Positions 5,866-44,141 of a stretch of DNA of 55,361 nucleotides are shown here, one piece after another. The translations under genes and the position numbers were made by a program. Each line of letters starts with the position of its first letter. Position 1 is the first letter of the stretch. Below the pieces are notes generated by a model. The model ran no database searches, was not told the DNA's origin, and worked only from the letters and a program-made list of their open reading frames with translations. Source of the stretch: Acidisoma sp. L85 (lineage in GTDB: Bacteria > Pseudomonadota > Alphaproteobacteria > Acetobacterales > Acetobacteraceae); the NCBI RefSeq assembly GCF_009765865.1, contig NZ_LMUQ01000076.1, positions 212,934-268,294 of the forward strand, given 5' to 3'.

Positions 5866-8475
5866 ATGAGCGATACTAAAGATCAAGACGGCAAGGCGCG
5901 TCTGTCCCTGCGTCCCGCGGGGCGGCTGGAACTTGGGCGGACGGTCGATGCCGGTTCTGTCCGGCAGAGCTTCAGCCATGGACGTTCCAAGGTGGTGCAG
6001 GTGGAGGTGCGCAAGAAGCGCGCGGCCACGGCTCCGCTGCCGGCGGGGCCTACGCCTGCGGGCACGACCCCAGCACGGCCCAGTGGTGGGAGCCGGGGCC
6101 CAAGCGGTGCGCCAACCCGCGCGCTGACAGCGAACGAGCTTGCCATCAGGCAGCGCGTTCTCGCCGATCAGCAGCGCGACACCGCGAAGCGCGAGGCCGA
6201 GGCACGTGAGCAGGAGAAGATCTCGATCCTCTCCGCCGCCGAGGAAGCGCGCCGCCGTGAGGATGACGCGAGGCGCGCGGCCGAGGAAGCCGAACGCATG
6301 AAGGCCGAGGAGGCTGCGCGCGCGATCGCCGAGGAAGCTGAGCGGCGCGCTGCCGCTGAGGCTCACGAGCGAGCTGCCGCCGCACCTGTGCCGGTTGCCG
6401 ATCAGCCGGTGGCGCCGCCACCGCCGCGTCCCGCGCCCGGTGAGACTCTGCGTCTCAAGACACCCTCTCGCCCCGGCGAGGAGGATGAGGATCAGCGCCC
6501 GGTTCGCCGTCTCGGCGTGCTGGTGCCGCCGCGCAAGCCGGCCGTCGTCGCGCCTAAGAAGGGTGCCGATGATCGCCGCCGTACCGGCAAAATCAATGTT
6601 CAGGCCGCGATCGAGGGTGACGACGAGCGGGTGCGCAGCATCGCCTCGATGCGCCGCCAGCGCGACCGTGAGCGCCGTCAGCAGGAACTCGAGCGTCTGC
6701 GCGCCGATCAGGTGAAGGTGGTGCGCGATGTCGTGCTGCCGGAAGCCATTACGGTGCAGGAACTCGCCAATCGTATGGCCGCGCGGGCCGGCGATGTGGT
6801 CAAGACGCTGATGCGGATGGGCGTGATGGCGACCATCACCCAGAGTATCGATGCCGACACCGCCGAACTCGTGGTGCAGGAATTCGGCCATCGCGTGAAG
6901 CGCGTGTCCGAAAGCGATGTCGAGATCGGTCTCGAAGGCGCGGATGACGAGGACGTTGACCTCATCAAGCGCGCGCCTGTTGTGACCGTCATGGGCCATG
7001 TCGATCACGGCAAAACGAGCCTGCTCGACGCGCTGCGCCGGACCGATGTCGCGGCCGGAGAGGCGGGCGGCATCACCCAGCATATCGGCGCCTATCAGGT
7101 GACGCTGCCTTCGCAGGAACGCATCACCTTCATCGATACGCCTGGCCATGCCGCCTTCACGGCGATGCGGGCACGCGGCGCCGGTGTCACGGATATTGTG
7201 GTGCTGGTCGTCGCGGCGGATGATGGCGTGATGCCGCAGACGATCGAGGCGATCAGCCATGCCAAGGCCGCGCATGTGCCGATCATCGTCGCCATCAACA
7301 AGATGGATAAGCCGAGCGCCAACCCCGAGCGCGTGCGCAACGAGCTGTTGCAGCACGAGATCGTGGTCGAAAGCCTCGGCGGCGATACGCAGGAAGTCCA
7401 TGTCTCGGCGCTGAAGGGCACGGGTCTCGACAAGCTCGAGGAAGCGATCCTCGTCCAGGCCGAAATCCTCGACCTGCGCGCTAACCCCGATCGCGATGCG
7501 GAAGGTACTGTGATCGAAAGCCGCCTCGACCGCGGGCGTGGTCCGGTCGCGACGGTGCTGGTCCAGAAGGGCACCTTGTTCCAGGGCGATATCGTGGTGG
7601 CCGGCGCCGAATGGGGCCGGGTGCGCGCGATGCTCGATGCCAGCGGCCAGCCGGTGAAATATGCCGGTCCGTCCATGCCGGTCGAGGTGCTCGGCCTGTC
7701 GGCGGTGCCTTCCGCCGGCGAGCCCTTCGTGGTCGTTGCCGACGAGGCGCGGGCACGCGAAGTCGCCGAGTTCCGCACCCGCAAGGCGCGCGACAAGGTG
7801 ACGGCGGGCCAGATCGCGGGCCGCGGCACGCTCGACCAGATGCTCGCCCGCATCCAGGCCGGCGTGCAGAAGGAAGTCGGTGTGCTGATCAAGGCCGATG
7901 TGCAGGGCAGCGCGGAAGCGCTCCAGGCCGTCGTGCTGAAACTCGCCAATGAGGAAGTGAAGGTTCGCGTGCTGCTGGCCTCGGTGGGTCAGATCACCGA
8001 GAGCGACATCCAGCTCGCGCGTGCCTCGAACGGCATCATCGTTGCCTTCAATGTGCGTGCCACCGTGCAAGCGCGGGAACTGGCGACGCGTGAGGCGGTC
8101 GATATCCGCTACTACAGCATCATCTACGATGTCGCCGACGACATCGAGAAGCTGGTGCGTGGCCGGATGGCACCGATCGTGCGCGAGAACTTCCTGGGCT
8201 ACGCGCAGATCCGCAAGGTCTTCGACATCACCAAGTCCGGCAGGGTTGCTGGTTGCATGGTGACCGAGGGTCTGGTCCGCCGTGGCGCCGGTGTCCGCCT
8301 GCTGCGCGACAATGTGGTCATCCACGAGGGCGATCTGTCGCAGCTCAAGCGCTTCAAGGACGATGTCCGCGAAGTGGCGCGCGGCTACGAGTGCGGCCTG
8401 TCCTTCGCCGGGTTCCAGGACCTGCGTGAGGGCGACATGGTCGAGTGCTACGAGAGGGAACTCGTTCCGGCGTGA
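5866..8475 (+). CDS. infB: Translation initiation factor IF-2
   Basis: 869 residues. IF-2 is the GTPase that places fMet-tRNA on the 30S subunit and promotes subunit joining. The N-terminal part (about 1-280) is low complexity, rich in Ala, Glu, Arg and Pro with long charged helices, as in alphaproteobacterial IF-2. An IF2_N segment ([19 protein letters not shown]) precedes the G domain. G1 is [14 protein letters not shown] (near residue 377), G3 is [15 protein letters not shown] and G4 is NKMDKPSAN. Domains II, III and C2 (fMet-tRNA binding) follow to a normal C-terminus. Its stop overlaps the GTG start of rbfA (GTGA), so rbfA translation is probably coupled. Confidence 0.97.
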
Positions 8476-27041: not shown

Positions 27042-27126
27042 CAGTCGTTTCTCTACTTGATGTTCTGCTCAAAGCCTGGGCATACGCTCGGTTCCGGATT
27101 GGCTTAAAATTATAAACGACGAGGGG
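27038..27126 (+). promoter_or_regulatory. Probable promoter region and ribosome site of the polyol operon
   Basis: A consensus TTGACA (27038-27043) overlaps the regulator's stop codon. The hexamer 17 bp further on (27061-27066, TGTTCT) is a poor -10. A TATAAA at 27111-27116 is too close to the start to be a usual -10. GAGGGG at 27121-27126 is the ribosome site that decides the smoE start: it sits 6 nt before ATG 27133 but abuts ATG 27127. No clear operator palindrome was found. Confidence 0.35.
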
Positions 27127-34993: not shown

Positions 34994-36214
34994 TCAACTT
35001 GCTGCCTGCACCGTCTGCCATCCCTCGGAGGCAAGGGCGTGCAGGATCTCATCCTCTCCGCATAACCCGACCACGCGGCCCTCCGCCGTCATGATGACGG
35101 GGAGCCCGGAGGTCTGCCGCGCCTGGATGACCGACTTCATCGTCGCCTCGGAACTGATCGCCGTGCACCAGCCTGGCTGCGTGACGTCGTTTTCGGTCGC
35201 GGCGAGCAGTACTGGCACAGGCTTGCCATCGACCTTTACCTGGATGTCGCGGCCATTGCCGAGATCCATGAGGATGTCGCGATGCGGATCGAGCACTTTC
35301 CAGCCGTCGCGGCTCGGCAGCTGGTCGAGCTGCCGCATGAAGGTCCGGCCGCGCAACACGTTCAGCGGATTCATGTGCTGGACGAATTCCCGGACATATT
35401 CGCTGGCCGGGCGCAGCACGATATCCTCCGCCACGCCGGATTGGATGATCCGGCCGCCTTCGAGAATGGCGATCTGGTTGCCCAGCTTCAGCGCCTCGTC
35501 GAGGTCGTGGCTCACGAAGATGATGGTTTTCCGGACCTCCTTCTGCAGGGCGAGAAGCTCGTCCTGAAGCTTGGTCCGGATGAGTGGATCGAGCGCGGAA
35601 AATGGCTCATCCATCAGCAGAATATCGGCATCGGTCGCGAAGGCGCGGGCGAGGCCGACGCGTTGCTGCATGCCCCCTGAGAGTTCGCGCGCGTATTTGT
35701 CGCCCCATTTATCCAGCGCCACGAGCTTCAGCTTCTCATCGACGATGCGGCGGCGCTCGGAATCCGAAACCCCGCGCAGCTCGAGGCCGAGGCCAACATT
35801 TTCGCGCACCGTGCGCCAGGGCAGCAGCGCGAATTGCTGGAACACCATGGCGATGCGCCTTGTGCGCATGAAGCGCAGAGTGGCGGCGTCGCAACTCGCC
35901 ATATCGACCTGGCCTTGGTCACGCGCCACCAGGATGCGGCCGCGCGTCACCTTGTTCAGGCCGTTGACGGCGCGCAGCAGGGTGGATTTGCCCGAACCGG
36001 ACAGACCCATGAGAACGCAGATCTCGCCCTCGCGAATTTTCAGCGAAGCACCTTGTACGCCCATGACGACGCCGGTTTTGGCGATGATCTCGTCCCGGCT
36101 GTGGCCCTTGTCCATCAGCGCGAGGGCCTCGTTCTTGGCACGAGCGCCGCGCCGGCCGCGGCCTGAGAACAGAATATCGACGTTCGAGAATTCGATGACC
36201 GTCTTGTCGTCCAT
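34994..36214 (-). CDS. choV: Choline ABC transporter ATP-binding protein
   Basis: 406 residues, of the ProV/ChoV type. An N-terminal extension typical of quaternary-amine importers (ALALMDKGHSRDEIIAKTG) precedes Walker A MGLSGSGKSTLLRAVNGLN near residue 70. The Q-loop segment MVFQQFALLPWRTVRENV, the signature ELSGGMQQRVGLARAFATDA, Walker B ILLMDEPFSALDPL and the switch SHDLDEALKLGN follow. A C-terminal CBS-like regulatory part ends the protein. It powers choline uptake through ChoW, whose stop lies 2 bp upstream. Last gene of choXWV on the minus strand, divergent from the bet genes that oxidise choline. Confidence 0.94.
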   Translation of the reverse strand: MDDKTVIEFSNVDILFSGRGRRGARAKNEALALMDKGHSRDEIIAKTGVVMGVQGASLKIREGEICVLMGLSGSGKSTLLRAVNGLNKVTRGRILVARDQGQVDMASCDAATLRFMRTRRIAMVFQQFALLPWRTVRENVGLGLELRGVSDSERRRIVDEKLKLVALDKWGDKYARELSGGMQQRVGLARAFATDADILLMDEPFSALDPLIRTKLQDELLALQKEVRKTIIFVSHDLDEALKLGNQIAILEGGRIIQSGVAEDIVLRPASEYVREFVQHMNPLNVLRGRTFMRQLDQLPSRDGWKVLDPHRDILMDLGNGRDIQVKVDGKPVPVLLAATENDVTQPGWCTAISSEATMKSVIQARQTSGLPVIMTAEGRVVGLCGEDEILHALASEGWQTVQAAS

Positions 36215-36216
36215 GA

Positions 36217-37068
36217 TCAGCCCTCCCCGCTCTCACGCGGGCGACAGACGCGATCGAGAATTACGGCCAGGACGACGATGCAGAGACCGGATTCGAAGCC
36301 GACATCGACCCGGACGGAATTCAGCGCTTCCACCACCGGCACGCCCAAACCACCTGCGCCCACCAGGGCCGCAATGACGACCATCGACAGGCTGAGCATG
36401 ATGCATTGGGTTAGCCCGGCCATGATCGTCGGCAGCGCGTGCGGCAATTCAACCTTCCAAAGGAGCTGACGCGGAGATGCGCCGAAGGCCTGTCCCGCCT
36501 CGATCAATGGCAACAGCACGGAGGCGATGCCGAGCTGCGTGAGCCGGATTGGCGCGGGCAGGGCAAAGATGATGGTGGAGATCAGGCCCGGCACGGCACC
36601 AAGGCCGAATAGCACCAGCGTCGGGATGAGATAGACGAAGGTTGGCAAGGTCTGCATGAGGTCGAGGAACGGCCGGACGCCGACGAAAAGCCAAGGCCGA
36701 TGGGCGCAAGCGATGCCGATCGGCACGCCGATGAGCATGGAAATCACGGTCGCGAAGATGATTAGCGACAGCGTCTCCATCGTCGCCGTCCAATAGCCCT
36801 GGTTGAGGATAAAGAGCAGGGCGATCGCGACGAAGAGCGAGAGTTTCCAAGACCGGCGCATCGCATAGGTGATGGCGATGACGATGAGGATCAGCACGAT
36901 CGCCGGGATCGCTTCCAGCACGTAAGTGACGCCGTTGATGGCGCCAGCGATCCCGTTCGAGATGGCGTCAATGAAGTCCGTGCCGTTAATCGCGTTGACG
37001 ATGCTCGCAAGCCAGTCGCCGATCGGGATTTTGTGACCGGAAACGAGCTTGGCGATTCCATCGAACAT
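36217..37068 (-). CDS. choW: Choline ABC transporter permease
   Basis: 283 residues, a ProW-like inner-membrane subunit with about six to seven helices (AIPAIVLILIVIAITYAM, LSLIIFATVISMLIGVPIGI and others). The permease loop is GASPRQLLWKVELPHALPTI, near residue 205. The N-terminal amphipathic segment GDWLASIVNAINGTDFIDAI is typical. It transports choline delivered by ChoX and is cotranscribed with choX (108-bp gap containing a hairpin) and choV (2-bp gap). Confidence 0.94.
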   Translation of the reverse strand: MFDGIAKLVSGHKIPIGDWLASIVNAINGTDFIDAISNGIAGAINGVTYVLEAIPAIVLILIVIAITYAMRRSWKLSLFVAIALLFILNQGYWTATMETLSLIIFATVISMLIGVPIGIACAHRPWLFVGVRPFLDLMQTLPTFVYLIPTLVLFGLGAVPGLISTIIFALPAPIRLTQLGIASVLLPLIEAGQAFGASPRQLLWKVELPHALPTIMAGLTQCIMLSLSMVVIAALVGAGGLGVPVVEALNSVRVDVGFESGLCIVVLAVILDRVCRPRESGEG

Positions 37069-37176: not shown

Positions 37177-38145
37177 TTACGAGGTGGCGAGCGCCTTTTT
37201 GACGGCCTCATCGGCCGGCTGGCTGCCGTCCATCGTCGTCACGCCCTGCAGCCAGGGCGTCATCGCATCCGGATTGGCCTTCAGCCACTTCGTCGCCGCA
37301 GGCACGGGATCCATCTTGTCATACATGATCGAACCCATGATCGTGTTCTCCATGTCAAGATTGAACTTCAACTGCGTCAGGAACTTCCCGAGATTCGGGC
37401 AATCCTGCAGGTAGTTCGCGGCCACATTCGTATAGACGGTGGCGCCGCCGTAGTTCGGACCGAACACTGCGTCACCGCCCGACAAATACTTCATGTCGTA
37501 TTTGGTGTTCATCGGGTGCGGCTCCCACCCTAGGAACACAATGCCTTTGTTGTGCTTGGTTTTACGGGAAACCTCGGCGAGCATGCCCTGCTCGCTGGAC
37601 TGCACCAGCGTGAACTTGCCGACGCCATCGGTGTTGTTCTTGATCATATCGAGGATGAGGCGATTGCCGTCATTGCCCGGCTCGATGCCGTAAATCTTGC
37701 CGTCCAGTTCACTGTAGAACTTCGGAATGTCCTGGAAGGACTTCAGCCCCTGGTTGTAGAGATAGGTCGGAACCGCGAGCGTGTATTTGGCGCCCTCGAG
37801 GTTCGCCCCGACAACATAGACTGTTTTATTTGCGACATATGGCTTGATGTTATCCGCCATCGTCGGCATCCAATTGCCGAGGAAGACATCGATCTTCTTC
37901 TGCTTCATTTCCTCGTAGGTGACGGGAACCGAGAGCATCGTTGTCGTCGGATTATAGCCGAGCGCCTGAAGAATTGCCGTCGCGGTGCCCGTTGTGGCCG
38001 TGATGTCGGTCCAGCCGACATTGGAGAACGGTACGTTTTTACAGCTCGCCGGATCACCGGCGGCGCGCGCCGCCTGAACGCCGCCGCCAATCGTGACCGC
38101 GGCCAAGCCCATTGCCGCGACAGCCCGAAGAAGTTGTTTGCGCAT
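37177..38145 (-). CDS. choX: Choline ABC transporter substrate-binding protein
   Basis: 322 residues. The signal peptide (MRKQLLRAVAAMGLAAVTIG to ARA, near residue 28) leads to a periplasmic OpuAC/ChoX-type protein: NVGWTDITATTGTATAILQA, MKQKKIDVFLGNWMPTM, IYGIEPGNDGNRLILDMI, FLGWEPHPMNTKYD. Trp and Asp residues in these segments form the quaternary-ammonium box of the family. The start at ATG 38145 is favoured by AAGGAA 7 nt upstream and by the signal peptide; an upstream in-frame start adds 19 non-signal residues. First gene of choXWV, in front of BetI-box-like sites. Confidence 0.94.
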   Translation of the reverse strand: MRKQLLRAVAAMGLAAVTIGGGVQAARAAGDPASCKNVPFSNVGWTDITATTGTATAILQALGYNPTTTMLSVPVTYEEMKQKKIDVFLGNWMPTMADNIKPYVANKTVYVVGANLEGAKYTLAVPTYLYNQGLKSFQDIPKFYSELDGKIYGIEPGNDGNRLILDMIKNNTDGVGKFTLVQSSEQGMLAEVSRKTKHNKGIVFLGWEPHPMNTKYDMKYLSGGDAVFGPNYGGATVYTNVAANYLQDCPNLGKFLTQLKFNLDMENTIMGSIMYDKMDPVPAATKWLKANPDAMTPWLQGVTTMDGSQPADEAVKKALATS

Positions 38146-38205: not shown

Positions 38206-38221
38206 TTGAACATACTTTCAA
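38206..38221. promoter_or_regulatory. Second candidate BetI-type site, choX-proximal
   Basis: TTGAACATACTTTCAA has 5-bp arms (TTGAA/TTCAA) related to the better palindrome at 38359. It lies 60 bp upstream of the choX start and could place a repressor over that promoter. It is weaker than the other site. Confidence 0.35.
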
Positions 38222-38358: not shown

Positions 38359-38378
38359 TTGATTGCACGTTCAAGCAA
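38359..38378. promoter_or_regulatory. Candidate BetI operator between choX and the bet genes
   Basis: TTGATTGCACGTTCAAGCAA is a 20-bp imperfect palindrome (8 of 10 pairs match). It closely resembles the TTGATTG...CGTTCAA style of known BetI boxes. It sits 42 bp before the BetI start, in the 275-bp divergent gap. BetI would repress here until choline is present (known for the family; inferred here). Confidence 0.6.
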
Positions 38379-38420: not shown

Positions 38421-40499
38421 GTGGCCCGCCGAGATTCCGAGGATGTCCGACGCCGGCAATTGATCGATACGACGATCATCGTCATGGCGCAGGTCGGGTT
38501 CAATGGAACCACGCTTGGCCTCATCGCGAAACATGCAGGCGTCTCCACGGGGCTCGTCGCTCATTATTTCGGCGACAAGGACGGGCTGCTGGAAGCGACG
38601 CTTCGCGCCCTCGCTTCCCGCCTGAGCCTTGCCGCCGCAGCGCGGATGCGCGCGGCCACGTCGCCGCGCGCAAGGCTGCAGGCGGTAGTGGATGCAAATC
38701 TGGCGCCAGAGGAGATGGATTCGCAAACCGCGACCGTCTGGCTAGCCTTCTGGGGTCAGGCGATCCATTCGGAGCCGCTCAAGCGCATCCAGCGCGTCTA
38801 TCAGCTCCGCGTCCTGTCCAATCTCCGCCACGCCCTGCGCAGCCTGGTGCCGGAAAGCGAGGTCGCGCGTCTCGCCATTATCATCGCCGCTATCATCGAC
38901 GGTCTCTGGCTGCGTACCACGCTGTCCGCGTCCTGGAGCGAGGCGGATGCCGATGCGATACGCCGCATCGCCGCCGGTTTCGTGGAAAGCCAGATCATCG
39001 TCCGCACGGAAGGACTTCCCATGGCCGCCAAAGCCGTCCCGCATCCGCGGCACCTGAATTGGATCGGCGGCGCGCCCGTCGCCTCCGCCGCGGGCCGCAG
39101 CTTCACGACGATCAATCCCGCGACAGGCGAGGTGCTGGCGGAGATCGAGATCGCCGAAGCGCCCGAGGTCGAGGCGGCCGTATCGGCCGCACGGGCGGCG
39201 CAGAAGCTCTGGGGCCGCATGACGGGATCGGAACGCGGCCGGATTCTGCGCCGGGTCGCGGATATCCTGCGGGCAAAGAATGACGAGCTGGCCGAGTTGG
39301 AGACGCTCGACACCGGCAAGCCGATCCAGGAGACGCGGGTCGTCGATGTCATTTCGGGCGCCGACTGCATCGACTATTTCGCGGGTCTCGCGGGCGGGCT
39401 GGCGGGCGAGCATATCGATCTCGGTCCGGGTGCCATGGGCTATACACGGCGGGAGCCGCTGGGCGTCGTCGCCGGGATCGGCGCCTGGAATTATCCGTTG
39501 CAGATCGCCTGCTGGAAGGCCGCGCCGGCGCTGGCGGCGGGCAATGCGATGATCTTCAAGCCCGCCGAACTCACGCCGCTCACCGCGATCAGGCTCGCCG
39601 AGATCATGCGGGAAGCGGGGGTGCCGGACGGTGTTTTCAATGTCGTGCAGGGCTTCGGCGACACCGGGCGGCTACTGACGCGCCATCCCGGCATCGCGAA
39701 GATCTCGCTGACCGGCGAGGTCGGCACCGGCAAGAAGGTGATGGCGGATGCCGCCGAGACCCTCAAGCAGGTGACGCTGGAATTGGGCGGCAAGTCGCCG
39801 ATCCTCGTGTTTGAGGATGCCGATATCGAGAATGCGGTGTCGGGCGCGTTGCTCGGCAATTTCTACTCGGCGGGCGAAGTCTGCTCCAACGGCACGCGGG
39901 TTTTCGTGCATCGCGCGATCAAGGAGCGGTTTCTGGCGCGCCTCACCGAGCGCACCGCGCGCATGGTGGTGGGCGACCCGATGGACCCCGCAACGCAGGT
40001 GGGCGCGCTGATTTCCGAGAAGCATATGGAGAAGGTGCTGTCCTACGTCGCGCGCGGCGTAGCCGAGGGCGCGCGGCTGGTCTGCGGTGGCGAGCGCATG
40101 ACGCGCGACGGGCTCGATCGTGGCTTCTTCGTCTCGCCCGCCATTTTCGATGGCTGCCGCGACGATCATGCCATCGTGCGGGAGGAGATCTTCGGCCCGG
40201 TGATGACCGTGCTCGACTTCGAGCATGAGGACGAGGTCGTGGCGCGCGCGAACGATACCCCCTTCGGCCTCAGCGCCGGGGTGTTCACGCGCGATATCTC
40301 GCGCGGCCATCGGGTGATCGCGGAGCTTCAGGCCGGGACCTGCTGGATCAACACCTATAACGTGACGCCGATCGAGCTACCCTTCGGTGGGTACAAGCAG
40401 TCGGGCCTGGGGCGGGAGAACAGCCGCGCGGCGCTGGAGCATTACACGCAGCTCAAGAGCGTCTATGTCGCGCTCACCGATATCGACGCACCGTACTAA
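38421..40499 (+). CDS. Single open frame joining BetI repressor to betaine aldehyde dehydrogenase BetB
   Basis: 692 codons without a stop. Residues 1-200 are a full-length BetI, a TetR-family choline-responsive repressor: RRRQLIDTTIIVMAQVGFNG, the HTH IAKHAGVSTGLVAHYFGDKD, WLAFWGQAIHSE, and AAIIDGLWLRTTLS near residue 165. Residues 201-692 are a full-length BetB aldehyde dehydrogenase. Normally betI ends just before betB; here the codons run through (...IIVRTEGLP then the BetB Met). The start is GTG 38421 with AGGAG at 38411-38415. Either a DNA-binding/enzyme fusion is made, or BetI lost its stop recently, or a sequencing error removed it. The internal BetB start keeps its own ribosome site, so separate BetB is also possible. 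Confidence 0.85.
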   Translation: MARRDSEDVRRRQLIDTTIIVMAQVGFNGTTLGLIAKHAGVSTGLVAHYFGDKDGLLEATLRALASRLSLAAAARMRAATSPRARLQAVVDANLAPEEMDSQTATVWLAFWGQAIHSEPLKRIQRVYQLRVLSNLRHALRSLVPESEVARLAIIIAAIIDGLWLRTTLSASWSEADADAIRRIAAGFVESQIIVRTEGLPMAAKAVPHPRHLNWIGGAPVASAAGRSFTTINPATGEVLAEIEIAEAPEVEAAVSAARAAQKLWGRMTGSERGRILRRVADILRAKNDELAELETLDTGKPIQETRVVDVISGADCIDYFAGLAGGLAGEHIDLGPGAMGYTRREPLGVVAGIGAWNYPLQIACWKAAPALAAGNAMIFKPAELTPLTAIRLAEIMREAGVPDGVFNVVQGFGDTGRLLTRHPGIAKISLTGEVGTGKKVMADAAETLKQVTLELGGKSPILVFEDADIENAVSGALLGNFYSAGEVCSNGTRVFVHRAIKERFLARLTERTARMVVGDPMDPATQVGALISEKHMEKVLSYVARGVAEGARLVCGGERMTRDGLDRGFFVSPAIFDGCRDDHAIVREEIFGPVMTVLDFEHEDEVVARANDTPFGLSAGVFTRDISRGHRVIAELQAGTCWINTYNVTPIELPFGGYKQSGLGRENSRAALEHYTQLKSVYVALTDIDAPY
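39021..40499 (+). CDS. betB: Betaine aldehyde dehydrogenase (internal start of the joined frame)
   Basis: 492 residues if initiated at ATG 39021, which has GGAAGGA at 39008-39014. NAD(P)-dependent oxidation of betaine aldehyde to glycine betaine, the second step of choline oxidation. Marks are AGIGAWNYPLQIACWKAAPALAAGN, FKPAELTPLTA, LTGEVGTGKKVM, the general base Glu in LELGGKSPI, the catalytic Cys in SAGEVCSNGTRVF, and EEIFGPVMTVL. The C-terminus GGYKQSGLGREN ... YTQLKSVYV is standard. This entry nests in the longer frame 38421-40499, because the sequence supports initiation at either site. Betaine made here serves as an osmoprotectant or carbon/nitrogen source. Confidence 0.85.
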   Translation: MAAKAVPHPRHLNWIGGAPVASAAGRSFTTINPATGEVLAEIEIAEAPEVEAAVSAARAAQKLWGRMTGSERGRILRRVADILRAKNDELAELETLDTGKPIQETRVVDVISGADCIDYFAGLAGGLAGEHIDLGPGAMGYTRREPLGVVAGIGAWNYPLQIACWKAAPALAAGNAMIFKPAELTPLTAIRLAEIMREAGVPDGVFNVVQGFGDTGRLLTRHPGIAKISLTGEVGTGKKVMADAAETLKQVTLELGGKSPILVFEDADIENAVSGALLGNFYSAGEVCSNGTRVFVHRAIKERFLARLTERTARMVVGDPMDPATQVGALISEKHMEKVLSYVARGVAEGARLVCGGERMTRDGLDRGFFVSPAIFDGCRDDHAIVREEIFGPVMTVLDFEHEDEVVARANDTPFGLSAGVFTRDISRGHRVIAELQAGTCWINTYNVTPIELPFGGYKQSGLGRENSRAALEHYTQLKSVYVALTDIDAPY

Positions 40500-40859
40500 C
40501 GGTGCTGCCGTCTCCCGCCGTGAGGTCAGAAGAACCGAATCATATGCAGTGCAGGCAGGGCACTGAATGGCGGTGTCGTAGTCGTTGTCGCGTTGACCGT
40601 GGTACATGATTCGTTGCCCAGAACGCGCGCGAAGCGGTCGAGCACGATGGGCAGAACCCCAGCCGCTATTCGCGCGGTTAGGTGCGGTTCGAAACCTCCA
40701 TTAGGGGACGTGAAGTTATCAAACACGGAAAATCGAACAGTGCCGTGGCCAATTCTCGCATCAGACGTTTAGTCATCTCCTGATTTTCGACCAGGACACC
40801 CTAAGCCCGCCGGCACTAACAAAACCTGAGTCAATCATTCCAGCCAACGGAACAAGGAT
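40500..40859. other. 360-bp gap between betB and betA
   Basis: betB and betA are usually adjacent. This gap holds no recognisable gene on the plus strand. On the minus strand an open frame ends at 40526, with GTG 40724-40726 as its only initiator. It encodes about 66 residues (VFDNFTSPNGGFEPHLTARI onward) plus a readable upstream stretch lacking a start codon. I cannot assign it and find no ribosome site for it. It may be a gene remnant. AAGGA at 40854-40858 lies immediately before the betA ATG. Confidence 0.4.
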
Positions 40860-42515
40860 ATGGAAAGCTTCGACTACATCATCGTCGGCGCGGGCTCCGC
40901 CGGCTGCGTGCTGGCGAACCGGCTGACCGAGGATGGCGAGCACAAGGTGCTGGTGCTGGAATATGGCGGGTCGGATCGCTCGATCTTCATCCAGATGCCG
41001 GCGGCGCTTTCCATTCCGATGAACCGGAAACGTTATAACTGGTTCTATGAATCTGAGCCGGAGCCGCATCTGGCGGGCCGGCGCATGCATACGCCGCGCG
41101 GCAAGGTGATCGGCGGCTCGTCCTCGATCAACGGCATGGTCTATGTGCGCGGCAATGCCCATGATTTCGAAAGCTGGGAGCGGCAGGGCGCGCGCGGCTG
41201 GGGCTATCGCCATGTGCTGCCCTATTTCCGCCGCGCCGAAACGCGGGAGGAGGGTGGAGACGCATATCGCGGCGCGGATGGTCCGCTCTACACCTCCTAT
41301 GGCAAGCTGAAGAACCCGCTGTATCGCGCCTGGATCGAGGCGGCGAAGCAGGCCGGCTATCCGGAGACCGAGGATATCAACGGCTTTCAGCAGGAAGGCT
41401 TCGGCCGCATGGACATGACGGTCCGGCGCGGCCAGCGCTGGAGCGCCGCGAATGCCTACCTGAAGCCGATCCGTAGCCGGACCAATCTTGAAATCCGCAG
41501 CCATTGCCTCGTTACTTCGCTGATCCTGGAAGGCCGGACGGTGGTGGGCGTGCGCTACCGGCGGGGCAATGTCTCGCATGAGGTCAGGGCGTCGCGCGAA
41601 GTTATCCTCGCCGGCGGTCCGATCAATTCGCCGCAGTTGTTGAAACTCTCTGGTATCGGGCCTGCGGCGGAACTCGCGGAACACGGCATTACCACGGTCG
41701 CGGACCGTCCCGGTGTTGGTGAAAACCTCCAGGACCATCTGGAGTTTTACTTCCAGGTCGCGGTGACACAGCCGATCACGCTGTTTTCCGCGCAGGCGCT
41801 GCTGCCGAAAGCGGCGATCGGCTTGCGGTGGCTGCTGCGGCGGGATGGGCTCGGCGCCACCAATCATTTCGAGAGCTGCGGCTTCATCCGCAGCCGTGTG
41901 GGGATCGATTATCCGGACATCCAGTATCATTTTCTGCCGCTCGCGGTGTCCTATGACGGCAATAGCCTTGCCACCGAGCATGGCATGCAGGCGCATGTCG
42001 GCCCGATGCGTTCCAAAAGCCGTGGCTGGGTGCGGCTGCGATCAGCCGATCCCGCCGACAAGCCGCGCATCTTCTTCAACTACCTCAGCCATCCGGACGA
42101 CCGGGAGGAGATGCGCGCCTGTGTCCGCCTGACGCGGGAGATTTTCGCCCAGCCCGCATTCGCTCCTTATCGCGGGCGTGAGATCCAGCCGGGTGCAGAT
42201 GTGACGAGCGACGAGGCGATCGATGCCTTCGTCGCCGCGAAGGTGGAAAGCGCCTACCACCCGTCCTGCACTTGCAGGATGGGCGATGCCGCCGACCCCA
42301 TGGCGGTGGTCGATCCGGAAACGCGCGTGATCGGCGTCGAGCGGCTGCGGGTGGTCGATTCCTCGATCATGCCGAGTGTGACCAATGGCAATCTCAACGC
42401 GCCGACCATCATGATCGGCGAGAAGGGGGCTGATCATATCCTCGGGCGGCCGTTGCTCGCGCCCTCCAACGCGCCCTTCTACACCGCCGCGAATTGGGAG
42501 CAGGCGCAGCGATGA
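40860..42515 (+). CDS. betA: Choline dehydrogenase
   Basis: 551 residues, an FAD-dependent GMC oxidoreductase oxidising choline to betaine aldehyde at the inner membrane. The N-terminal dinucleotide fold YIIVGAGSAGCVLANRLTED is followed by GMC signature 1 (GKVIGGSSSINGMVYVRGN, near residue 82) and GMC signature 2 (AGGPINSPQLLKLSGIGP, near residue 258). The active-site His lies in SAYHPSCTCRMG near residue 463. Length and C-terminus (SVTNGNLNAPTIMIGEKGAD) are normal. It is separated from betB by an unusual 360-bp gap, and its stop overlaps the DUF2177 gene (ATGA). With BetB and ChoXWV it completes choline-to-betaine conversion. Confidence 0.95.
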   Translation: MESFDYIIVGAGSAGCVLANRLTEDGEHKVLVLEYGGSDRSIFIQMPAALSIPMNRKRYNWFYESEPEPHLAGRRMHTPRGKVIGGSSSINGMVYVRGNAHDFESWERQGARGWGYRHVLPYFRRAETREEGGDAYRGADGPLYTSYGKLKNPLYRAWIEAAKQAGYPETEDINGFQQEGFGRMDMTVRRGQRWSAANAYLKPIRSRTNLEIRSHCLVTSLILEGRTVVGVRYRRGNVSHEVRASREVILAGGPINSPQLLKLSGIGPAAELAEHGITTVADRPGVGENLQDHLEFYFQVAVTQPITLFSAQALLPKAAIGLRWLLRRDGLGATNHFESCGFIRSRVGIDYPDIQYHFLPLAVSYDGNSLATEHGMQAHVGPMRSKSRGWVRLRSADPADKPRIFFNYLSHPDDREEMRACVRLTREIFAQPAFAPYRGREIQPGADVTSDEAIDAFVAAKVESAYHPSCTCRMGDAADPMAVVDPETRVIGVERLRVVDSSIMPSVTNGNLNAPTIMIGEKGADHILGRPLLAPSNAPFYTAANWEQAQR

Positions 42516-42919: not shown

Positions 42920-43136
42920 CCTCTCGAAAGGCGGCGGCTTCGCTCCGGCGAATGCATTCCGGAAGCGGATCGTTAACATCTTTCTGGTCTTATATCGTCA
43001 CGAATAGCCGACGGATTGATAAGGACTCATTCAGGTCTCTCTCATTTCCGGATGGTGACAGGTGGGAGAACAATCCGTTCTCGACCGAGTCTCGTGACAA
43101 TATCGCCGCCGCAGTGGCGCCGTAATGAGGTTCAAC

Positions 43137-44141
43137 ATGTCGAGCGTCGCGCCCTTTTCCTCGGTCTCTTCTGCGGATGGTCTATTCGGGTCTGAAGGCG
43201 TTGGCTCGACGACGCAGCCTGATTTCGCCGCGCTCTTCAATTCCTATCTCGATGACGACGACGAGACCGGCGGCGAGTCGCAGTCGTCGGCCGCTGGCCC
43301 CCTCGCGAGCGCGCAGGACAATGACATACTGCAGCAGATTACCGCCGGGGATTCCACACTGGGCGCGAAGTTCGAGAAGGATATGAAGAGCGGCGACAAG
43401 AAAGCGATCCTGAATGACATCCAGAATGCGTTGCATGAGGGTCTGATCTCGAAAGACGCCGCCTCCCAGTTCATGCAGCAGCCCGACATGGAGAAGTTGT
43501 TCAAGGGCACGCATATGGCGACGTACAAGGGTTACGAAGACGTCATCAACGAAGACGATACGAGAGGTTTCGACGGCGGCAAGGGCGGCTCCGATCTGCT
43601 AAAGGCCGGCGATAAATACGATGCCGAGCAGGTCGGAATGATTTTCGCTAAAATCTTCCTTGGCGTTGTCGCGGCGGCGGCGCTCGTCATTCCCGGCGTG
43701 GGTGAGGCGGTCGCTGGCGCAATGGGCGGCGTCGCCGCCGGTGTCGCGGTCGGTATAGGGGAGGGCGCGTCGGCGGCGGTCGATGTTGCGACCGGAGTAA
43801 GCTCGACGGTCGCCGGCGTCGTTGGCTCGGTCAGCGATGCCGCCGGTTCGGTCGCCGACGGCGTGGGTTCGGTCGTCGATGGCGTCTCGGACGCAATCAG
43901 CCCCGCCACCGATGCCGTCAATCAGGCCGTCAATCGGGCCGTCACGCCGGCGGCGGATCTCTTCGATACCACCAACGAGGACCTCTTACAGAGCGCTCAG
44001 GATGCGACAAACAAGGCCAATGATGCGGCCAATTTCGCGCAGCAGCAGGAGCGGAACGTCAGCCAGCAGCAAGACTACGATCAGCAGCAGGCCGCTCTGC
44101 AACTCCAGGCGTTGCAGGCGCAGGCAGCCGTAGGCGCCTGA
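43137..44141 (+). CDS. Secreted-type protein of unknown function with hydrophobic repeats and Gln-rich coiled-coil end
   Basis: 334 residues, not recognised. The first 90 residues are Ser/Asp-rich and polar (FNSYLDDDDETGGESQSS). Residues 60-120 carry a helical stretch (LGAKFEKDMKSGDKKAILND). About residues 160-215 are strongly hydrophobic (IFAKIFLGVVAAAALVIPGV ...). They run into Gly/Ser/Val repeats spaced about seven residues (VGSVSDAAGSVADGVGSVVD). The C-terminus is a Gln-rich coiled coil (QQQERNVSQQQDYDQQQAAL). There is no classical signal peptide. The layout recalls type III secretion translocators or harpins, but no secretion genes are nearby; that is only a resemblance. The start at ATG 43137 is set by TGAGG at 43126-43130 with a 6-nt spacer. 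A terminator overlaps its stop. Confidence 0.75.
   Translation: MSSVAPFSSVSSADGLFGSEGVGSTTQPDFAALFNSYLDDDDETGGESQSSAAGPLASAQDNDILQQITAGDSTLGAKFEKDMKSGDKKAILNDIQNALHEGLISKDAASQFMQQPDMEKLFKGTHMATYKGYEDVINEDDTRGFDGGKGGSDLLKAGDKYDAEQVGMIFAKIFLGVVAAAALVIPGVGEAVAGAMGGVAAGVAVGIGEGASAAVDVATGVSSTVAGVVGSVSDAAGSVADGVGSVVDGVSDAISPATDAVNQAVNRAVTPAADLFDTTNEDLLQSAQDATNKANDAANFAQQQERNVSQQQDYDQQQAALQLQALQAQAAVGA

Follow-up and report, generated by a model that had tools for sequence, protein, structure and literature searches.

A BetI-type repressor and a betaine-aldehyde dehydrogenase joined in one conserved reading frame in alphaproteobacteria

The fused gene and its neighborhood

The window, i.e., the whole stretch of 55,361 nucleotides of Acidisoma sp. 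L85 analyzed here, contains one open reading frame at 38421–40499 on the forward strand that encodes a BetI-type repressor followed by a betaine-aldehyde dehydrogenase, and we use betIB as its working name. The gene starts with GTG, preceded by AGGAG a few bases 5', and encodes 692 amino acids. The first-pass annotation had placed BetI and BetB in one uninterrupted frame, with BetI at residues 1–200 and BetB at residues 201–692. The stop-free translation of 692 codons bears this out, with BetI at residues 1–193 and BetB from about residue 210.

Three Pfam domains were found in the fusion: TetR_N (residues 14–59), the BetI-type TetR_C_6 (residues 82–191), and Aldedh (residues 223–681). The BetI half (residues 1–193; 38421–38999, + strand) comprises the TetR-type DNA-binding domain and the BetI-type C-terminal domain. 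It matched the NCBIfam model NF001978 with 194.9 bits (cut-off 118) and TIGR03384 with 200.2 bits, about one bit below the cut-off of 201.3. The BetB half (39057–40496, + strand) passed the cut-offs of both betaine-aldehyde dehydrogenase equivalogs, NF009725 and TIGR01804. Residues N357, K380, E454, and C488 (fusion numbering), which we take to be the catalytic Asn, Lys, Glu, and Cys of aldehyde dehydrogenases (ALDHs), are present in this half and invariant across 25 fusions of the family. Both the equivalog matches and the four residues mark it as a BetB. The nearest other ALDH of the same genome is 43% identical to the BetB half, and the other TetR proteins are 26–40% identical to the BetI half, with the value of 40% spanning only 59 residues.

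Genes of a choline/betaine ABC transporter are oriented divergently on the reverse strand and encode a choX-like substrate-binding protein (37177–38145; OpuAC, inferred ATG start), a permease (36217–37068; BPD_transp_1), and an ATPase (34994–36214; ABC_tran). Downstream of the fusion is betA (40860–42515, + strand), encoding choline dehydrogenase, a GMC oxidoreductase with GMC_oxred_N and _C domains. This gene follows the fusion in all 25 family fusions. A 360-bp stretch (40500–40859), found by a repeat search to be single copy in its genome, separates betIB and betA in the window, and betA directly follows in the four other members of the genus. An open frame of 338 amino acids with an Ala/Gly/Val-rich middle and no Pfam match is located at 43125–44141.

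Distribution of the fusion

The same open frame was found in all five genomes of the genus, the window included. It is not open by chance, since the other four genomes keep it at 76–80% identity over its full length. No stop codon was present at the junction in any of the five, the comparison of close relatives that the first-pass annotation had proposed for a lost stop codon.

Searching 397 genomes of the family with the BetI half as a query yielded 33 matching genomes at E ≤ 1e-20, and 25 of the 33 have a fusion-sized frame. Inspection of these loci (the window and 32 others) revealed 25 fused genes, 7 pairs of separate genes, and 1 locus ending at the contig end (G013). The 25 fusions include that of the window, and the remaining ones are 57–80% identical to it.

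Named genomes were scanned with a 25-row BetI alignment, and the best 80 loci of a longer list were used. Among them were 41 fused genes, 36 separate genes, and 3 loci in which a contig end or a stretch of N interrupts the sequence; the value of 41/80 is not a frequency because the query was built from fused BetIs. Five of the 41 have a degenerate enzyme, one is broken inside BetB, and one is cut at the contig end. Carriers among these best 80 loci were assigned to Faunimonas, Azorhizobium, Ancylobacter, Aureimonas, Kaistia, Bauldia (a MAG), Methylobacterium, Methylorubrum, Novosphingobium, Sphingorhabdus, Acetobacter, and Gluconacetobacter, and also to MAGs labeled as gammaproteobacterial. 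A fusion copy in a Parvibaculaceae MAG (L123, 6001–7203) has a frame break within the BetB part, which is either an error or real decay. On a plasmid of Komagataeibacter saccharivorans the fusion is annotated as a single CDS named betaine-aldehyde dehydrogenase.

In a sample of 385 genomes of the class, 51 had a match and 4 were fused (G000, G747, G748, and the degenerate G659). In a sample of 398 genomes of the phylum, 107 had a match and 5 were fused (G000, G748, G1032, G1212, and G1228). In a quick motif check on loci of this sample, L301 had all four ALDH motifs, and L302 and L303, both short loci, had at most three of the four. Six candidates with long frames from these samples (G732, G1001, G559, G491, G997, and G432) were rejected: their frames extend upstream and stop 6–32 residues past BetI, and no ALDH is in frame with BetI in any of them. 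G423 and G553 were also rejected, the genes being separate. Among the papers listed in a search of the open-access literature, with subscription papers and preprints outside its scope, none was on a BetI-BetB fusion.

Origin of the fusion

A tree of 137 BetI domains was built from 68 separate genes, 60 fusions, 6 fusions with a degenerate enzyme, and 3 cut loci, after 5 duplicate or partial rows were dropped. The fused rows were on one side of a branch with SH-aLRT support of 96, corresponding to one state change. The tree of 103 betaine-aldehyde dehydrogenase (BADH) domains, which omits 11 loci as well as any locus lacking a usable ALDH, also has one state change (SH-aLRT 86), as does a joined tree of BetI and BADH for 67 chosen rows (SH-aLRT 98). 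All three trees were obtained by a quick method without bootstrap and with the root taken among the separate genes. Judging from these sequences, the fusion probably arose once, if the root indeed lies among the separate genes. No reversion to separate gene pairs was seen inside the fused clade of the BetI tree in the 66 of 69 rows that could be judged; the other three were cut. The first-pass annotation had considered that a lost stop codon would leave BetI with a tail of 492 residues; a recent loss of this kind with a harmful tail is not borne out, given the old origin on the trees and the fusion of 25 of the 33 family loci.

Two close relatives without the fusion, L159 and L298, have a betI stop codon that overlaps the betB start codon (ATGA in L159 and ATGCCTGA in L298). 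On the BetI tree, L159 is the closest of the separate relatives. Another unfused relative, L297, has a short gap between the two genes and no overlap. We infer that the fusion likely originated by a frameshift at an overlapping stop and start.

Junction and possible internal start

The linker between the domains (39000–39056, + strand) varies in length and sequence among relatives and is in frame in all 72 fused proteins that were aligned (L292 was missed by the profile). Between the BetI domain and the NPATG motif of BetB lie 15–58 residues that show little sequence conservation and in many cases contain much Ala, Pro, and Ser. BetB lacks its first residues in the sphingomonad copies and in many copies labeled as gammaproteobacterial. 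In seven intact pairs, dN/dS was 0.03–0.23 on both halves, indicating purifying selection, and 0.36–1.22 in the linker.

The ATG at 39021 behind GGAAGGA reported by the first-pass annotation is present. This in-frame codon (39021–39023) and the ribosome-site-like sequence (39008–39014; together 39008–39023, + strand) form a candidate start for free BetB. A junction ATG occurs in all five genomes of the genus, and in four of them its ribosome-site pairing is among the strongest tenth of internal ATGs. The earlier proposal that free BetB is made alongside the fusion is therefore plausible for this genus, which, on the sequence evidence, may make both. Considering ATG and well-primed GTG codons, with TTG left uncounted, the 72 fused junctions comprise 8 with a strongly pairing ATG, 15 with a weak ATG, 3 with only a strongly primed GTG, and 46 with neither. 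The window and three of the four other genus members belong to the strong-ATG group, and the fourth has a weak ATG. Five of the 46 fused proteins without a junction start have a degenerate enzyme. With neither an ATG nor a well-primed GTG at these 46 junctions, BetB probably works there as the fusion itself, and much of the clade seems to make BetB only in the fused form.

Operator-like boxes

An operator-like box, TTGATTGCACGTTCAA, is located upstream of the fusion (38359–38374) and agrees at 15 of 16 positions with what we take to be the E. coli BetI box consensus. By this sequence match the locus has a predicted BetI operator upstream of its operon, as expected for a BetI. A second box, TTGAACATACTTTCAA (38206–38221), lies near the divergent choX start and is present in all five genomes of the genus, 153–156 bp from the first. 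The whole window contains three matches to TTGA-N8-TCAA, compared to 0.24 expected; the third (27057–27072) is far from the bet locus and probably occurs by chance. Among the fused genes, 67 of 72 have an exact TTGA-N8-TCAA within at most 400 bases upstream, with 0.28 expected from mononucleotide shuffles. The footprinted palindrome given for Ruegeria pomeroyi BetI1 is ATTGACG*CGTCAAT, which has the TTGA/TCAA ends in common with TTGA-N8-TCAA and a shorter center; the BetI2 boxes of the same organism do not fit the consensus (PMC12442346).

Two or more boxes lie between BetI and the divergent transporter gene at 40 of the 52 fused loci, compared with 2 of the 34 separate ones. Six loci (L155, L165, L199, L204, L141, and L113) were removed from this count as duplicate or cut, and near-identical relatives were kept. 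The difference has a Fisher p of 2e-11 and represents one evolutionary contrast, since the fusion changes once on the tree. A matrix derived from 19 separate-locus sites gave the same counts, 40/52 versus 2/34, at a threshold of 9, and 38 versus 1 at a threshold of 11. With exact boxes only, and with these removals not yet complete, pairing occurred at 19/53 fused and 0/36 separate loci. Fused loci have somewhat longer intergenic regions than separate loci (median 352 versus 313, p 0.04). The two unfused loci with two boxes are L120, where they are 20 bp apart, and L159; the latter indicates that box pairing may predate the fusion.

Fusions with a degenerate enzyme half

Of the 72 aligned fused proteins, 62 have the complete set of four catalytic residues. 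The other 10 comprise one protein cut at a contig end, one with a frame break, and eight degenerate proteins in which catalytic residues have been lost and the enzyme half is still joined. The degenerate fusions are L127, L129, and L130 of Kaistia (L127 being an alphaproteobacterial MAG), L288 (family of Kaistia granuli), L158 and L160 (Methylobacteriaceae), L293 (family of Methylobacterium terricola), and L294 (G659). The genes are located at 5995–7989 in L158, 5995–7941 in L160, 5995–7974 in L129, and 6001–7962 in L130.

An operator-like box is kept in all eight, and six of the seven transporter-linked degenerate fusions have two exact boxes. The fetched loci of L129, L130, L288, and L127 contain no betA, as is also the case for L286, in which the enzyme is intact. 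L158, L160, and L293 have separate betB and betA genes nearby, and betA remains in L294. When genomes were searched with the fusion as the query, those of L127, L129, L130, and L294 yielded no further ALDH above 45% identity, and those of L158 and L160 yielded another ALDH with 56–57% identity to the fusion.

For 14 pairs in which one or both proteins are degenerate, dN/dS was 0.26–0.85 at dS of 0.6–1.2, which corresponds to relaxed rather than strong constraint. Indels in multiples of three accounted for 8/8 in L129/L288, 3/3 in L288/L285, 4/6 in L129/L285, 8/12 in L130/L285, 5/13 in L158/L160, 6/8 in L127/L124, and 11/18 in L158/L293, although these counts, taken from plain nucleotide alignments, are unsure at such divergence. 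Given the relaxed dN/dS and the mixed indel counts, we make no claim of selection for function, only of a joined frame.

Retention of residues was evaluated at 215 columns conserved in 60 intact proteins, with 4 truncated or broken rows excluded. The presumed ALDH oligomerization segments were not preferentially retained in the degenerate enzymes (0.35 versus 0.42, p 0.87). The residues kept are scattered over the fold, and the stretch 230–249, presumably the NAD-binding loop, was retained at 0.08. Independent losses of catalysis would number four by the BetI tree, which has six degenerate rows, and one by the trees built with the enzyme half, for which the program issued a long-branch warning.

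Proposed function of the fusion

We consider it quite probable that betIB encodes a genuine, old, and conserved bifunctional protein, in which a choline-responsive BetI is connected by a variable linker to a BetB under its control. A PutA-like repressor-enzyme is the best reading of the data. The frame, its conservation, and the boxes point to an autogenous arrangement, with the enzyme and the predicted repressor of its own operon in one chain. BetI represses the bet genes and is released by choline, and BADHs such as BetB are tetramers. By analogy with these known proteins, the fusion is expected to bind choline, repress, and form tetramers. When choline is lacking, the BetI half would occupy the operators between the divergent transporter genes and betIB-betA, and both would be repressed. 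Choline would release the BetI half from the operators. Each newly made dehydrogenase chain would carry a new repressor, so that the switch would be rebuilt in fixed proportion to the enzyme. An operon under its own repression would thus supply repressor and enzyme 1:1, with control spanning both choline uptake and oxidation. The internal start may provide extra free BetB in the genus of the window, and the fusion could be cleaved, or bypassed there by internal initiation.

Alternatively, the BetB half could act as a trigger enzyme that senses betaine aldehyde or NAD(H) and alters DNA binding by the BetI half, somewhat like the effect of proline and the flavin state on PutA. The layout is that of trifunctional PutA (PMC5293562), and the catalytic residues are kept in 62/72 fusions. 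However, the eight degenerate fusions have lost these residues and retain the 230–249 stretch at only 0.08, while the boxes and BetI stay, so active-site sensing is not essential there. Moreover, BetI is already choline-binding according to its family description (the name of TIGR03384). We regard sensing by the enzyme half as rather unlikely.

An oligomeric enzyme half could instead enable two BetI dimers to hold both operators at once by looping the DNA. The excess of paired boxes at fused loci (40/52 versus 2/34) agrees with such bridging, as do the two exact boxes of six of the seven transporter-linked degenerate fusions. However, L159 is unfused and yet has two boxes, and two promoters facing apart could each need a box of their own. 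Box spacing in 28 lineage representatives showed no clear helical phase: at 10.5 bp, R was 0.27 and p about 0.13, and the lowest p, about 0.02 near 11 bp, is uncorrected. The degenerate enzymes show no preference for keeping the oligomerization segments, which speaks against bridging in those fusions. Looping therefore appears possible but doubtful.

The degenerate fusions raise a related scenario, in which the ALDH was recruited as a working part of the repressor, serving as a bridge or sensor. A pseudoenzyme domain would then persist in those Kaistia and Methylobacteriaceae relatives where betA is no longer adjacent or another betBA took over, in a transcription factor that still faces the choline-uptake genes across two operators. 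If true, it would be an enzyme caught on its way to becoming a regulator. We hold this to be rather unlikely, and a decaying tail that remains joined would explain the degenerate halves just as well as a newly gained role in regulation.

It is improbable that the join is translated and neutral, with BetB mostly free owing to an internal start or proteolysis. This would fit the junction ATG and ribosome site kept in the genus of the window and the freely evolving linkers (dN/dS 0.36–1.22), but 46/72 junctions have no ATG or well-primed GTG (TTG uncounted), and no separate pairs occur among the 66/69 judgeable rows of the fused clade.

Finally, the idea that two ordinary genes were merged by an error of sequencing or assembly, or by a stop-loss mutation private to this genome, has practically no chance of being correct: the earlier annotation rested on one sequence and frame breaks do occur in MAGs, e.g., L123, but assembly error is refuted by independent assemblies, the frame being open in 5/5 genus and 25 family genomes as well as in isolates with names, and annotated as one CDS on a plasmid.

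Comparison with known systems

To our knowledge, few enzymes carry their own repressor, PutA being the textbook case. Repression by PutA responds to proline and to the flavin state. Trifunctional PutA is the nearest known counterpart of the BetI-BetB fusion, and both have an N-terminal DNA-binding domain attached to a catabolic enzyme that contains an aldehyde dehydrogenase module. However, the DNA-binding domain of PutA has the RHH fold, whereas that of the fusion has the TetR fold, and the flavin-containing proline dehydrogenase domain of PutA is absent from the fusion. The fusion was accordingly rejected as a PutA member, since RHH and proline dehydrogenase are lacking and Pfam reports only TetR_N, TetR_C_6, and Aldedh. 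The functional switching of PutA to the membrane is not expected for BetI-BetB. By analogy, the fusion may work like PutA without being a PutA. According to PMC5293562, trifunctional PutA, with its N-terminal DNA-binding domain and ALDH-containing enzyme, represses its own gene and a transporter gene.

Ordinary betIBA operons resemble the fused locus in that both halves are recognizable family members, the operator is of the same type, and betA and transporter genes are neighbors, but BetI and BetB are two proteins there. BirA and NadR are also self-regulating enzymes with an enzyme and a DNA-binding repressor in one chain, and they differ from the fusion in folds, ligands, and pathways. BirA is also treated in PMC5882156.

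This TetR-type fusion is easily overlooked, having been called a plain betaine-aldehyde dehydrogenase in one annotated record examined, and a genome listed with betBA but without betI may conceal the repressor within betB. Acidiphilium is tabulated with proXWVbetBA and no betI in PMC7824335, and its repressor may be hidden inside betB in this way. BetI-BetB offers a natural example of an enzyme bearing its own gene regulator in a number of alphaproteobacteria. With an apparently single old fusion, unfused relatives, forms with and without an internal start, and degenerate forms, one can test, by comparing these forms and by separating the two halves, why a repressor should be tied to its enzyme and whether enzymes are able to turn into regulators.
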